Below are positions 22,727 through 33,694 of a DNA stretch of 63,013 nt, in pieces. The position numbers and the translations under genes were made by a program. Below the pieces are notes generated by a model, which did no database searches, was not told the origin of the DNA, and worked only from the letters and a program-made list of their open reading frames with translations. Source of the stretch: Calditrichota bacterium (lineage in GTDB: Bacteria > Calditrichota > Calditrichia > Calditrichales > J004). Location of the stretch: NCBI GenBank assembly GCA_024277115.1, contig JAJRVW010000125.1, positions 1 to 63,013 on the forward strand. The letters run 5' to 3'. Position 1 is the first letter of the stretch, and every line of letters begins with the position of its first letter.

Positions 22727-24769
22727 ATGAAGATGTTAGTTTTTTTAATTGTTTTGGTAGGGTTGATTGTTGCCCGTCAGGAAACCGCACCTAAGGAAGA
22801 AGGGGCGTTTAAATACCAAACCGAGCAATTTGCCGATGTGCGAATTATCCGTTACCAGGTACCGGGTTTTGAAGAGTTGGATTTGAAGACGAAGAAATTA
22901 TTGTATTTTCTCTCCCAGGCCGCACTCTCCGGTCGCGATATAATCTATGATCAAAATTTTAAGTATAACCTGCTTGTGCGCCGCACGCTGGAAGCTATTA
23001 TCGAAAATTATTCCGGCGATAAGAACAGCGACGATTTTAAAAATTTTATGGTGTATGCGAAACGGGTTTGGTTTGCCAACGGTATTCATCACCATTATTC
23101 CAAAGATAAGTTTAAACCCGCTTTCAGCGCGGATTATTTTAGCGAATTGGTAAAAGCTGTTCCCGCCGAAAAATTGCCGTTGGCCAAAGATGAAAATATC
23201 GATGGTTTTCTTACACGCATCACACCGATTATGTTTGATGAAAGCTTGTATGCAAAAAGTGTAAACCTTGATGCAGGGATTGACCATATCAAAGAATCGG
23301 CCAATAATTATTATGAAGGTGTGACAGAACAAGAGGTTGTTGATTTTTATAAAAGCAAAATAAATAAGAATGATGCCGAACCTATTTCCTGGGGATTGAA
23401 TTCCAAATTGATTAAAGAAGATGGCGTTATCAAAGAAAAAGTCTGGAAGATTGGCGGTATGTACAGCGCGGCAATCGAGCAGATTGTTTATTGGCTTAAT
23501 AAGGCTGTGGATGTTGCCGAAAATGATCAACAAAAAAAGACTTTGCAGCTTTTAATAAAATATTACCAAACAGGCGACCTGCATGTTTTTGATGAATACA
23601 GCATTGCCTGGGTAAATGACACGGAATCGAAAGTGGATATGATCAATGGTTTTATTGAAGTTTATGGCGATGCGCTTGGCTATCGCGGTGCGTATGAATC
23701 CATTATTCAGGTAAAAGACCCCATCGCCACAAAACGTATAGCCGCCATCAGTAAAGAGGCGCAGTGGTTTGAAGATAATTCCCCGTTGATGGCTGAACAT
23801 AAAAAGGAAAACGTAAAAGGCATCACGGCCAACGTGATTAATGCTGTAATGGAAGCAGGCGATGCGGCACCGTCCACACCCATCGGCGTAAACTTGCCCA
23901 ATGCCAATTGGATCCGTTCTACACATGGCTCTAAGTCTGTTAATTTGGGCAATATTGTGGATGCTTACAGTGAGTCCTCTAAAAGCAGCGGCTCTTTAGA
24001 ATAATTTGCCTGGGACCAGGCGGCAATTGATCTTGAAAGAGAGTGGGGCAAATTAGGCAGCAATCTGCACACCGATATGCACGAAGTAATCGGTCATGCG
24101 TCGGGCAAAATCAATCCCGGGATTGGCACACCAAAAGAGACATTGAAAAATTATTCCAATACGTTGGAAGAAGCGCGCGCGGACTTGGTCGCCCTCTATT
24201 TTATAATGGACGAGCGTCTTGTAAAAATGGGAATTTTGCCCAATTTAAAGCCGGGCATGGCCGAGTATAACAGTTATATTGCCAATGGTATGATGAAACA
24301 GCTAAAACGTTTGGAACCGGGCGCTAACCTTGAGGAAGCACACATGCGCAACCGGCAGCTTAATGCCAGTTGGGTTTATGAAAAAGGTTTGGCCGATAGT
24401 GTAATCGAGAAAAAAGTACGTGGTGGCAAAACCTATTTTGTGATAAATGATTATATGAAATTAAAAGAACTCTTTGGCCAATTGTTGCGGGAAATCCAAC
24501 GGATAAAATCCGAAGGGGATTATGAAGCCGGGAAAAACCTGGTTGAAACGTATGGCGTAAAAGTGGATAAAGAATTGCATGAAGAGGTTTTAGCACGTTA
24601 TAAAAAGTTAAACATTGCCTCGTATGGTGGGTTTATCCAGCCAAAACTTACAGCTGTTGAAGAAGAAGGAAAAATTGTTGATGTGAAAATTGAATACCCG
24701 GATGATTTTACAAAACAAATGCTTTTGTTTAGTAAAAATTATTCGTTTTTACCGACGATGAATTAAGCT
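22727..24769 (+). pseudogene. Dipeptidyl-peptidase III (M49), interrupted by an in-frame TAA
   Basis: Both halves lie in the same frame: 22727-24001, then TAA at 24002-24004 (codon 426), then an open frame to the stop near 24766. The read-through product would be about 680 residues, the family size. After the TAA comes FAWDQAAIDLEREWG and the M49 zinc site HEVIGH (about 452-457) with EEARAD (E482). The 5' half alone has no active site. The N-terminus MKMLVFLIVLVGLIVARQET looks like a lipoprotein signal in which the lipobox Cys is now Arg (CGT at 22775, one transition from TGT). The TAA is one change from GAA. A stop plus a lost lipobox favours decay, though error remains possible. Confidence 0.85.
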
Positions 24770-24845: not shown

Positions 24846-25907
24846 TTGAAAAAAGTTCTAATAACCGGTGGGGCAGGTTTTATCGGTTCCAATCTGGTGC
24901 ATTATCTTATCGACAATAAGCTGGCCGAAGTCATCAATGTTGATCTTTTGACCTATGCCGGGAATTTGGCTTCTTTGAAAGCCGTAGAAAATAATCCACT
25001 TTACCATTTTGAAAAGGCGGATATTTGCGATCCTGAAAAAATAAAAACTATTTTTGAAAAATATAAACCGGACCTGGTTATGCACCTTGCGGCGGAATCG
25101 CATGTGGACCGTTCCATTGACGGACCGGCGGAGTTTTTAAATACCAATATTATGGGCACCTATAATATGCTGGAAATCAGCCGTTCGTACTGGGAAAAAC
25201 TTGATGATGATAAAAAGAATGGTTTTCGGTTTTTACATATTTCCACCGATGAGGTTTTTGGTTCCCTCGGTACCGAAGGCATTTTCAGTGAGACCACGGC
25301 TTACGATCCCAAATCGCCATACTCGGCCAGCAAAGCTTCATCCGATCATTTAGCGCGTGCCTGGCAACATACTTTTGGACTTCCAACGTTGATTACAAAC
25401 TGCTCTAATAATTATGGCCCTTATCAATTCCCCGAAAAATTAATCCCAGTAATTATTTTAAATGCCCTGCAAGGCAAGCCAATCCCGGTTTATGGTAAAG
25501 GGGAAAATATCCGTGACTGGCTTTATGTGGAAGATCATGTTTCTGCTTTATGGAAGGTTATAACCGAAGGTGGAACTGGCGAGACTTATTGCATTGGTGG
25601 CAATAATGAAAAACAGAATATTGATGTGGTAAAAATCATTTGCAGCTTAATGGACGAGTTGAGCGATAACCCAAAAGTAGGGCGGCATGAAGATTTAATC
25701 ACGTATGTAAAAGACAGGCCGGGCCACGATCTGCGCTATGCCATCGATGCGACGAAGATAAAAAATGATTTGGGTTGGGAGCCGGCCACAACCTTTGAGG
25801 TAGGCTTTCGGAAAACGGTAAAATGGTACCTGGAAAACCTGGATTGGTGCTCGGACGTTTTGGACGGTAAGTTGGATTTAAAGAGAATTGGTCTGAAAAA
25901 TACTTGA
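24846..25907 (+). CDS. rfbB: dTDP-glucose 4,6-dehydratase
   Basis: 353 residues of the extended SDR family. The NAD-binding [11 protein letters not shown] is at the start, with [10 protein letters not shown], the catalytic TDEVFG and [10 protein letters not shown] further in. It makes dTDP-4-keto-6-deoxyglucose for L-rhamnose or other deoxysugars of surface polysaccharide. It starts at TTG with AAGGAG nine bases upstream. The TGA stop lies within the left arm of the GxxExxY cassette. Confidence 0.96.
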
Positions 25908-26334
25908 CAGGATTACAGGATAAGAAAATATTTCTCTATGGAATATCAGAATATTACAGAACAAATTATAAAATGTGCTTATAAGGTTTATAACACATTG
26001 GGGTTCGGCTATCTTGAATCGGTCTATGAGAAAAGCATTATAATTGAATTAAAGAAAACAGGTTTAGATGTAGAAAGTCAAAACCCAATAACAGTCAGAT
26101 ATGACAACGAGATTGTTGGTTCATTTATAGCAGACTTATTTGTTGATAAAAAGGTAATCGTTGAATTAAAATCGATAAAAACTCTCACAAAAGCACATGA
26201 AGTCCAGTTAGTTAACTATTTAACAGCAACAGGAATCGATGTTGGTTTATTGATCAATTTTGGAGAGTCGAAAGTAGAAGTAAAAAGAAAAGTCAGGATG
26301 CTAAAAAAGTGATTTTTATCCTGTTATCCTGTCA
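25905..26334. mobile_element. Inverted-repeat-bounded cassette carrying a GxxExxY gene
   Basis: The left end TGACAGGATTACAGGATAAG (25905-25924, continuing into A-rich text) is matched by the reverse complement of the right end at 26312-26334, TGACAGGATAACAGGATAAA, with one clear mismatch over the first 19 bases. The element holds a single gene, splits rfbB from rfbA and uses the rfbB stop codon as its first three bases. No transposase is present, so movement would need an outside enzyme. Confidence 0.68.
25938..26312 (+). CDS. GxxExxY family protein
   Basis: 124 residues. The name-giving motif is seen as GYLESVY within NTLGFGYLESVYEKSI, followed by the family blocks GSFIADLFVDKKVIVELKS and LVNYLTATGIDVGLLINFG. 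The ADL...VELK spacing resembles a PD-(D/E)xK nuclease-type core, which is suggestive only. Family members are short, often present in many copies and scattered between unrelated genes. The stop overlaps the right inverted-repeat arm. Confidence 0.85.
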   Translation: MEYQNITEQIIKCAYKVYNTLGFGYLESVYEKSIIIELKKTGLDVESQNPITVRYDNEIVGSFIADLFVDKKVIVELKSIKTLTKAHEVQLVNYLTATGIDVGLLINFGESKVEVKRKVRMLKK

Positions 26335-26374: not shown

Positions 26375-27238
26375 GTGAAAGGAATAATCTTAGCCGGTGG
26401 AAGTGGGACGAGGCTTTATCCGGTAACACAAACGGTTAGTAAACAATTATTGCCTGTGTACGACAAACCGATGATTTATTACCCGCTTTCAACACTTATG
26501 TTTGCCGGGATAAATGATGTTTTAATCATCACGACACCGGAAGATGCGGATCAGTTCCAGCGTTTGTTAAAAGATGGCAGCCAATGGGGGATAAATATTT
26601 CGTATGCGGTACAACCCAATCCAGAAGGACTTGCCCAAGCCTTTATTATTGGTGAAGACTTTGTAGGCGGCGATACGGTTTCACTTGTTTTGGGCGATAA
26701 TATCTTTTTTGGCCATTCATTGCCCGAGATGTTGACCCATGCGGCACAGGTAAAAGATGGTGCGACTGTTTTTGGCTATTATGTAAAGGATCCCGAAAGA
26801 TATGGTGTCGTAGAATTTAATGAAAAGAACGAGGCTTTAAGCATAGAGGAAAAACCGGAGAAACCGAAATCCAATTATGCTGTAACCGGATTGTATTTTT
26901 ATGACAATGACGTACTTGAAATTGCCAAGAATATAAAACCTTCGCCACGTGGTGAGTTGGAAATTACTGACGTAAACCGTGTTTATCTGGAAAATGGCAA
27001 ACTAAATGTGGAGTTGATGGGACGCGGATTTGCCTGGTTGGATACGGGCACACACCAATCTCTTGTTGACGCGACTTTATTTATTAAAACCATTGAGGAC
27101 AGGCAAGGATTGAAAATCGGCTGTATCGAAGAGATTGCCTATCGAAATGGATTTATTGATGCCGGCCAGGTTGAACGACTTGCCGAACCCATGAAAAAAA
27201 ATAATTATGGGCAATATTTATTAGGACTCTTAAAATAG
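26375..27238 (+). CDS. rfbA: Glucose-1-phosphate thymidylyltransferase
   Basis: 287 residues. The nucleotidyltransferase motif [11 protein letters not shown] is at the N-terminus, then KPMIYYPLS and the metal-binding LGDNIFFG. It makes dTDP-glucose, the substrate of RfbB. It starts at GTG with AAGGAG upstream. Its own ribosome binding site follows directly after the cassette, so expression may persist from the rfbB promoter despite the insertion. Confidence 0.97.
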
Positions 27239-31759: not shown

Positions 31760-32581
31760 ATGAGTTCAGGCTTAACAAGAGTGGCTACCAATATTCAGGC
31801 GATGCAGTCACTAAACTATCTGAATAAAACCAACGCTAAGATTGCCAAGAACCAGTTAAATTTGGCAACCGGTAAAAAAATAAATACACCTGGTGACGAT
31901 CCTGCCGGGTATCAATTAGCGCGTGGCCTTGAAGCACGTAGAAATGGACTTGAAGCTGCTTTAGACAATGTTAACAATGCGAACAGCATTCTTAATATTG
32001 CCGACGGTGGTTATCAAAATATCATGGATATTTTGCAAACAATGAAGTCGAAAGCAACACAGGCCGCTGATGGAAGTTTGGGTACGACCCAACGGACAGC
32101 TATAAATGATCAGTTTACAGCATTACGTTCAGAGGTCGATCAGATCGTAACAGAAACGACCTTTAACGATGTAGCACTTATTGACGGCACATTCTCCGTT
32201 ACATTCCAGACAGGTGAGGGAGCCAGTGAAACACTATCTGTTGCATTATCCAGCGCTACTTCAACAGGGCTTGGCATAAATTCTGTATCATTAACAACAC
32301 AAGCCAGCGCATCTGCCGCCATTACAGCATTTGACACGGCCATCAATACACTTTCTTCTCGTGCCCAGGATGTTGGCGAGTATAAAGCACGTTTAGTTGC
32401 AAAAGAAAATACATTAAGTACGGCGATTACGAATACAGAAGCGGTAAGAAGTACCTATGAAGATGCAGATTTCGCTAAGGAGCAAATGGAAGTGCTTAAG
32501 ATGCAGATCTTACAGCAAACTGCGGTGTCCTCTTTGTCTCAGGCAAACTCAGCGCCACAGTTAGTGCTGTCTTTATTCTAA
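31760..32581 (+). CDS. Flagellin, short form (copy 1)
   Basis: 273 residues made almost only of the conserved D0/D1 helices. The N-terminal block SSGLTRVATNIQAMQSLNYL and DPAGYQLARGLEARRNGLEA, and the C-terminal EDADFAKEQMEVLKMQILQQ with terminal SLF, are standard flagellin. The variable middle is reduced to a beta-rich TFSVTFQTGEGASETL, so there is no outer D2/D3 domain. By my count it differs from copy 2 at 29 of 273 positions (about 89% identical). AAAGGGG precedes the ATG and a strong terminator follows. Confidence 0.97.
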   Translation: MSSGLTRVATNIQAMQSLNYLNKTNAKIAKNQLNLATGKKINTPGDDPAGYQLARGLEARRNGLEAALDNVNNANSILNIADGGYQNIMDILQTMKSKATQAADGSLGTTQRTAINDQFTALRSEVDQIVTETTFNDVALIDGTFSVTFQTGEGASETLSVALSSATSTGLGINSVSLTTQASASAAITAFDTAINTLSSRAQDVGEYKARLVAKENTLSTAITNTEAVRSTYEDADFAKEQMEVLKMQILQQTAVSSLSQANSAPQLVLSLF

Positions 32582-32872: not shown

Positions 32873-33694
32873 ATGAGTTCAGGCTTAACACGGGTTGCAT
32901 CAAACATTCAGGCTATGCAATCTCTAAATCAGCTGAATAAAATTAATACCAAGATTTCTTCAAGTCAGCTCAAGTTGGCCACGGGTAAAAGAATTAACTC
33001 CCCGGGAGATGATCCTGCTGGGTACCAGCTTGCTCGTGGATTGGAATCCCGTCGTAATGGGTTGGAAGCAGCATTAGGAAATGTTAACAATGCGCAAAGC
33101 ATTCTTAATATTGCCGATGGTGGTTATCAAAACATTATGGACATTCTCCAAACAATGAAGTCTAAAGCTACCCAAGCTGCCGATGGTAGTTTAGGAAGTA
33201 CACAACGTACCGCTATAAACGACCAGTTTGTAGCCTTGCGTTCTGAGATTGACCAGATTGTAACTGAGACAACCTTTAATGACAATGCGCTTATTGACGG
33301 AACATTCTCCGTAACATTCCAAACCGGCGAAGGCGCCAGTGAAACCTTGTCGGTGGCACTAAGTAGCGCCACATCTACCGGGTTGGGTATAAATAATTCT
33401 TCAATGGCCACTCAGGCAAGCGCCTCTGCAGCGATCACAACATTGGATACAGCCATTAATACTTTGGCCTCACGTGCCCAGGATGTTGGGGAATTTAAAG
33501 CGCGCCTTACTGCCAAAGAAAACACGCTTAGTACTTCGATTACAAACACAGAGGCAATAAGAAGTACTTATGAAGATGCAGATTTTGCCAAGGAACAGAT
33601 GGAAGTTCTGAAAATGCAGATTTTACAGCAGACTGCTGTATCATCACTTTCTCAAGCAAATTCAGCGCCTCAAATAGTGTTGTCTTTATTCTAA
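32873..33694 (+). CDS. Flagellin, short form (copy 2)
   Basis: 273 residues, a tandem paralogue of copy 1. Most differences are in the N-terminal helix (residues 20-43) and the C-terminal half of the small variable region. AAGGAGG stands before the ATG. A hairpin but no strong terminator follows, so some transcripts may read into fliS. Confidence 0.97.
   Translation: MSSGLTRVASNIQAMQSLNQLNKINTKISSSQLKLATGKRINSPGDDPAGYQLARGLESRRNGLEAALGNVNNAQSILNIADGGYQNIMDILQTMKSKATQAADGSLGSTQRTAINDQFVALRSEIDQIVTETTFNDNALIDGTFSVTFQTGEGASETLSVALSSATSTGLGINNSSMATQASASAAITTLDTAINTLASRAQDVGEFKARLTAKENTLSTSITNTEAIRSTYEDADFAKEQMEVLKMQILQQTAVSSLSQANSAPQIVLSLF

Follow-up and report, generated by a model that had tools for sequence, protein, structure and literature searches.

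What is a GxxExxY gene with inverted repeats at both ends doing inside an rfb operon of a Calditrichota bacterium, and is it carried by a mobile element or part of what moves? We addressed this question in a stretch of 63,013 nucleotides (the window), which is a contig of a 4.97 Mb draft genome and is labelled C67 below. A first-pass annotation, made from the letters alone, had placed a GxxExxY cassette with near-identical inverted ends between two rfb genes and had taken it for a small non-autonomous mobile element with an uncharacterised cargo. The flanking genes were confirmed as rfbB and rfbA by profile matches, and the locus has the following parts.

24846..25907, + strand: rfbB, dTDP-glucose 4,6-dehydratase, upstream flank in the host operon (TIGR01181, 484.9 bits)
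25905..26334, + strand: whole inserted unit, 430 bp, missing at the rfbB-rfbA junction of 4/4 relatives in which the junction was found
25905..25926, + strand: left arm, ACAGGAT units at 25907-25913 and 25915-25921, TG before them
25938..26312, + strand: GxxExxY gene, predicted PD-(D/E)XK-type nuclease, 124 aa, with TIGR04256 and PF13366 matches
26313..26334, - strand: right arm, inverted array, ACAGGAT units on the minus strand at 26326-26332 and 26318-26324
26375..27238, + strand: rfbA, glucose-1-phosphate thymidylyltransferase, downstream flank in the host operon (TIGR01207, 512.8 bits)

The insert consists of a 22-nt arm, 11 bp, the 124-aa gene and the inverted arm, which begins straight after the GxxExxY stop codon. 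Both arms contain two copies of ACAGGAT, one base apart, and are 91% complementary (20 of 22 nt paired, one mismatch in the first 19), with 386 nt between them. The left arm starts with the rfbB stop codon TGA (25905-25907), as the annotation had noted. The PF13366 gene was the sole ORF of at least 80 aa in the insert, so that no transposase, the defining feature of IS elements and DDE transposons, is encoded by an ORF of this size, in agreement with the earlier claim. The inverted-repeat score of the insert was 17.0. Among control ORFs, a score of at least 16 was reached by 1/228 in a same-genus genome and 3/124 on other GxxExxY contigs, and a score of at least 14 by 4/228 and 6/124, respectively. 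Across 539 alignments tried for 60 window-subfamily units, no target-site duplication was found (best z 2.5). A genome-wide search for the arms, as proposed with the annotation, returned the array pattern at the two window arms only, and a looser pattern added one place. Elsewhere in the window, a peptidase-like gene is seemingly split into two ORFs (22727-24004 and 24077-24766 within 22727-24766) by a frameshift or an assembly error, and two near-identical flagellin-like genes, named from the sequence, lie in tandem at 31760-32581 and 32873-33694.

The GxxExxY gene was missing between rfbB and rfbA in G005, of the same genus, and in G002, G003 and G004, of the same family; these four junctions were also free of arrays. 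G005, with an RfbA 91% identical to that of the window, has a spacer without the gene, and in G002, G003 and G004 rfbB and rfbA overlap; the exact insertion border is unreadable from these relatives. A fifth relative, G001, has no close RfbA. By this comparison, the 430-bp unit is an insertion at the rfbB-rfbA junction. The presence there of a real gene-plus-array unit with inverted ends was confirmed.

The window protein is a clear member of the GxxExxY family, a family that is itself only named, with 143.5 bits against TIGR04256 (cut-off 35) and 142.3 bits against PF13366 (PDDEXK_3; cut-off 22, E 1.1e-41). Over 44 members, G22, G24, E27, Y30, D66, K78, Q90 and N107 were invariant, and E76 and Y94 were conserved at 90% or more; the conserved motifs of the window protein are D66, E76-x-K78, E27 and QxxxY (90-94). 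A sequence search of solved structures gave a best E of only 0.2. The AlphaFold2 model (pLDDT 95.4) had SSO0001 (4ic1), which we take to be a Cas4, as its nearest solved fold (Foldseek E 1.4e-4; VIA-align Z 10.3, rmsd 4.4, 101 aligned), and the next Foldseek matches were MGME1, lambda exonuclease and AddAB, all with E above 0.001. Since D66, E76 and K78 are conserved and the predicted fold agrees, we assigned the protein to the PD-(D/E)XK superfamily, of which the annotation had been reminded by a short motif, and predict a minimal nuclease like Cas4 and lambda exonuclease. The likeness to Cas4, lambda exonuclease and MGME1 lies in the modelled fold. Cas4 has four conserved iron-sulphur cysteines, whereas no cysteine was found among the invariant or nearly invariant columns of the 44 GxxExxY members; moreover, the window protein has only 124 aa and the family was not seen beside cas genes.

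The window genome has five TIGR04256 genes, which differ in their arms:

C67 (window): arms TGACAGGATTACAGGAT, score 17.0
C127: arms TTGTCCACGAATTACACAAATTTACACGAATTA, clear and unlike those of the window, score 20.5; between gmd- and fcl-like genes, as read from the sequence
C125: weaker arms of the TGTCAAAACTTTGATT type, score 12.5
C240: CACAGA-like repeats, score 9.5, the control level
C151: no arms, score 9.0

Family genes were present in 37 of the 40 genomes of the phylum. Out of 119 matches we examined 94 (the remainder, mostly short or degraded, was left out), and arms were scored for the 90 copies with 150 nt on either side. The median score was 15.75 for the real left-right pairing and 9.0 when arms were swapped between copies, and a score of at least 16 was reached by 45/90 copies but only 1.3% of swapped pairs. 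Clear arms were absent in about a third of the copies (score below 13 in 30/90).

We also tested how the arms relate to the protein. In 62 phylum loci scoring at least 13, after exclusion of pairs within a genus and of 19 pairs whose outer flanks match, arm similarity increased with protein identity (Mantel r 0.379, 0/10,000 permutations; 0.114 for the opposite-strand control); this comparison was built on paired arms only. The link was imperfect, as the arm of the nearest protein ranked in the top 5% for 22/62 loci (median rank 0.115). The GFGFLESVYEKC cluster of proteins was paired with ACAGGAT arms, the GNGFQEVIYQRALAIE cluster with TGTCTGAACC..TTTGATT arms, the LGYGFLEKVYENSL cluster with CACCGAA or CACCGAT arms and the AVYQEAL cluster with CACGAATT arms, and further clusters exist. 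Within 46 elements of the window subfamily, the two arms of one element agreed better than swapped arms in unit letters (0.934 versus 0.903, 0/2000 swaps) and in unit spacing (0.859 versus 0.640, 0/2000 swaps), and the letters between units agreed more weakly (0.542 versus 0.420, 1/2000). Because unit letters and spacing agree beyond swaps, we read the pattern as recognition of both by the protein, to which common descent of the whole unit may contribute; such descent could likewise be a partial cause of the coupling between protein and arm.

Since window-like proteins carry ACAGGAT arms within their own phylum, we expected, before any search, that relatives in other phyla would carry them too. 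The named loci are the best 80 of at least 557 relatives and not a random sample, and 76 of them had 200 nt on each side. Three also occur in the phylum set (L128=L049, L158=L072, L185=L099) and L045 repeats L042; these duplicates were removed in the counts of 73 loci, 46 elements and 138 genes and retained in those of shared words, target duplications, neighbours, control ORFs (124) and G.U pairs. Exact ACAGGAT faced inward on both sides in 62 of the 73 independent loci from these best 80, on one side in 8 and on neither side in 3, and 58/73 scored at least 14. Among 124 control ORFs on the same contigs, none had the motif on both sides and 8 had it on one. The matches listed include Armatimonadota, Methanoperedens and Methanosarcinaceae archaea, Cloacimonadota, Planctomycetota, Verrucomicrobia, Bacteroidales, WOR-3, Neomarinimicrobiota, Hydrogenedentota, Deltaproteobacteria, Nitrospinaceae, Sumerlaeota, KSB1, Dependentiae, Nitrospirae and Anaerolineae. 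The prediction of ACAGGAT arms in other phyla, archaea included, therefore held. Still among the best 80 of at least 557, the outer end of the arms reads TT[T/A]GACAGGAT, with conservation fading outward within about six bases; the spacing of close units was 8 (65 cases), 9 (76) or 10 (11); and the 25 seven-letter words most shared between flanks were all pieces of the array or their complement.

Because the arm unit follows the protein subclade across phyla, we concluded that the gene is not idle cargo and that gene and arms form one dispersed unit; a mere passenger would not show such a tie. From the first reading, a small, inserted and dispersed cassette without a recognisable transposase is retained, and the non-autonomous element with a cargo is given up. 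With little more than even confidence, we regard the insert as one copy of a minimal mobile element, consisting only of a gene for a predicted PD-(D/E)XK nuclease and, in inverted orientation, two arrays of that protein's own repeat unit.

Arrays were also found without the gene. The ACAGGAT array pattern occurred in 19/40 phylum genomes, with up to 50 per strand, and the backward-read pattern in none; CACGAAT arrays numbered up to 391 in one genome. Arrays without a matching gene were present in G011 and G029 (38 ACAGGAT arrays each), G006 (44 CACGAAT arrays) and G036 (22 arrays and no GxxExxY match whatever). Many of the ACAGGAT arrays of G011 are found at the ends of contigs (e.g., L289, L290 and L291), so the assembly breaks there and gene-bearing units may be missing from the draft. 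The co-occurrence of arrays and genes gave p values of 0.032 (by arms) and 0.0012 (by protein) for ACAGGAT, 0.00076 for CACGAAT and 0.0078 for TGTCTGAACC. One cross-control was negative (0.88) and the other positive (p 0.0044), and because of the latter we regard type-specific co-occurrence as weak. When 423 kb were scanned freely, 9 inverted arrays were found versus 2 in shuffled sequence, with one clear gene-less pair, in G005. Forty gene-less ACAGGAT loci fetched from four genomes comprised 19 inward pairs, no outward pair, 18 single arrays and 3 pairs of the same direction, and the spacers of the inward pairs were mostly unrelated.

The junction of an HD-type hydrolase gene and an isocitrate-isopropylmalate-type dehydrogenase gene, read in 18 genomes, provided a second site. 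A GxxExxY unit was present there in seven genomes of six genera (G007, G009, G011, G012, G014, G016 and G021), with a stop in two of the seven genes. Remnants or other arrays were found in G008, G010, G022, G023 and G030; no array was seen in the spacers of G013, G019, G020 and G033, which in G020 and G033 are short. GAA is the unit ending on both sides in G012 and G014 and in nearly all units of G021; G007 and G011 have GAT on both sides, and G016 has a mixture. Over the seven genomes, GxxExxY identity and neighbour identity had a correlation of 0.52. Since the neighbour proteins of the congeneric G007 (L358) and G009 (L352) are 86% alike and the GxxExxY proteins only 64%, turnover at this site is likely. 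With its empty, filled, decayed or other-array states across genera, the junction (L349-L365) resembles a hot spot. In L363 (G030), arrays of another, AGTGACTAAAGTGACT-like type 3' of the HD gene flank several hundred bases without the GxxExxY motif.

No strain-level pair of occupied and empty sites with exact borders was found in the comparisons of G003/G004, L038 and G029/G030. The type I restriction locus of G004 (L221) and G003 (L222), whose conserved parts are 92-97% alike, carries quite different GxxExxY genes and was dropped as too variable; L038 was dropped because its flanks had no counterpart, and G029 versus G030 because they are too diverged.

Alternatively, a pre-existing inward pair might be the recognition site of the nuclease, which would cut between its arrays so that the gene is copied into the gap, as in homing; gene-less pairs would then be empty homing sites and not relics, and alleles without the gene should keep the site. 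The gene-less loci with two arrays of opposite sense, inward in 19/19 and with mostly unrelated spacers, are in line with this, as is a locus of G009 (L352; same place as L053), where an inward CACCGAA pair encloses a four-helix-bundle unit that has GGGAACT arms and is next to a decayed GxxExxY gene. However, the readable junctions without the gene are also free of arrays, at rfbB-rfbA in four relatives and at the HD/dehydrogenase site in G020 and G033, and we consider homing an unlikely explanation, though one that keeps some weight.

Six such four-helix-bundle genes, unrelated to GxxExxY, were met by chance in the fetched loci, each between inverted short-period arrays (two confirmed by TIGR02436, the others by tblastn):

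L350:1043-1402, - strand: four-helix-bundle gene
L350:3055-3405, - strand: four-helix-bundle gene
L352:2640-3005, + strand: four-helix-bundle gene
L353:2929-3279, - strand: four-helix-bundle gene
L061:2224-2577, - strand: four-helix-bundle gene
L225:16830-17153, + strand: four-helix-bundle gene

Arm type tracks protein similarity in these units as well: GGGAACT arms accompany three proteins that are 62-70% alike (one of them weak, at a score of 10.5), AGTTATTG arms two proteins 66% alike, and GTTTC-like arms one. A four-helix-bundle gene on a Pseudanabaena plasmid had no array arms, and no further relatives were found in viral contigs. The shared layout means that a nuclease may not be needed for it. 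Two unrelated gene families with a common layout, and genomes rich in arrays without a matching gene, would fit an enzyme that moves the arrays in trans, with the GxxExxY and four-helix-bundle proteins as array-binding accessories that steer, protect or regulate. The unit encodes no such enzyme, however, and since the arm code differs by GxxExxY subclade, a single common mover is hard to picture. We give this possibility slightly less credit than homing.

Copies of the GxxExxY gene mostly lie inside operons and in their direction: both neighbours were co-directional in 117/138 cases and both opposed in 2/138, compared with 68/119 and 12/119 for control ORF triples on the same contigs. This strong co-direction would suit a role at the RNA level, in which base pairing between the arms of the operon transcript would lead to excision of the insert from the mRNA, much as RNase III removes intervening sequences from rRNA; the part of PMC4990558 available to us describes such an element with paired inverted ends and a similar size. 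Arm mismatches showed no preference for G.U over A.C on the sense strand (94 versus 88, p 0.71; 117 loci), by which we rejected an RNA stem, and the letters between units agree weakly (0.54 in real, 0.42 in swapped arms). A role in RNA is thus very improbable.

The neighbours were diverse (140 Pfam families in the 106 scanned of 314 found, the commonest in 6), which did not support a preference for sugar-nucleotide operons. Spread on phages or plasmids was rejected: a search of 50,697 phage records gave no match and one of 72,556 plasmid records gave 8, and 2 viral contigs matched. Annotated plasmid neighbours include fabD and fabG (Sphingomonas), radA (Bacteroides finegoldii) and adenine deaminase (Bernardetia). 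Of the eight plasmid records, seven regions were read: clear array arms were present in B. finegoldii, Bernardetia and Gemmatirosa, short or weak arms in three, and an arm on one side only in Sphingomonas. Both viral contigs had clear arms. On the Gemmatirosa plasmid (L205), arms of GGACTGAAGAAGGAC units form several successive palindromes beside the gene.

Toxins and defence proteins occur among PD-(D/E)XK nucleases, and the arms might be operator or regulatory sites of a resident nuclease of this kind instead of element ends. PADLOC gave only weak Cas4 and PDC matches (best Cas4-model E 1.8e-4), and a defence system was rejected. Inverted copies at both ends, the many unrelated insertion sites and arrays far from any copy leave operator sites hardly any probability. 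A chance inverted repeat beside an ordinary gene, as armless loci such as C151 might suggest, is refuted by the controls, since control ORFs seldom reach the score and the arm sequence was correctly predicted in other phyla.

We compared the unit with known systems. Like REPIN/RAYT, as described in the accessible parts of PMC3733652 and PMC3116915, it has one gene bounded by short inverted repeats, together with inverted pairs that lack the gene and are scattered between genes; such dispersed doublets of the end repeat were present in 19/40 gene-less loci. REPIN/RAYT has an HUH tyrosine transposase, whereas here a PF13366 PD-(D/E)XK protein is present and the window-type ends are arrays of a 7-nt unit that varies by protein subclade. 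The intervening sequence of 23S rRNA, which according to the part of PMC4990558 we had is a selfish element of about 430 nt that holds a single small ORF and has inverted repeats at its termini, resembles the unit in size, its single small ORF and inverted ends, but lies in rRNA and carries an S23 ORF, while the window unit lies between rfbB and rfbA with a PF13366 ORF. The four-helix-bundle units are closer to these intervening sequences than the window unit is. S23 is presumably related to TIGR02436. Rpn proteins (YhgA-like, PF04754) are PD-(D/E)XK nucleases too, of another family than GxxExxY; in the accessible part of PMC5350276 they promote RecA-independent recombination and show little sequence specificity, and insertions of one paralog at the same place are described. 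A search for papers on GxxExxY gave, in the text available, passing mentions only and none on its function or the surrounding repeats, and no paper was found that explains where these short-period intergenic repeats come from. To our knowledge, Rpn genes have no array ends. As each known kind tested lacks a defining feature and the literature searches gave no description, we regard the unit as a putative kind of mobile DNA without earlier description, which by analogy may work like REPIN/RAYT.

For the minimal mobile element proposed above, the nuclease, probably as a multimer, would bind the arrays through ACAGGAT-like units 8-9 bp apart, with the intervening letters of little account, and would cut either within the inverted arrays or in the stretch that separates them. 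The unit would then be copied or re-inserted by host recombination or end joining, with no target duplication, expression of GxxExxY would come from readthrough of the host operon, and gene-less array pairs would be relics or have moved in trans. We infer that the nuclease cuts at the arms and that it drives the spread. More tentatively, and at rather less than an even chance, GxxExxY nucleases may be the self-sufficient movers of an undescribed class of transposase-free mobile DNA and the source of many short-period intergenic arrays (ACAGGAT, CACGAAT, CACAGAG, CACCGAA, TGTCTGAACC and others) in environmental bacteria and archaea, with an unrelated four-helix bundle having reached the same architecture. 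As each subclade would read one code, the array code would be predictable from the protein.

No function is known for the widespread GxxExxY protein, and the tie between subclade and repeat unit brings this puzzle and that of the intergenic repeats under a single hypothesis, open to testing in vitro. If the nuclease drives the spread, the unit would be a mobile element of about 430 bp without a transposase, recombinase or reverse transcriptase of its own, and the pairs of protein and array would form a natural set of nucleases that read sequence and have about 125 residues each.
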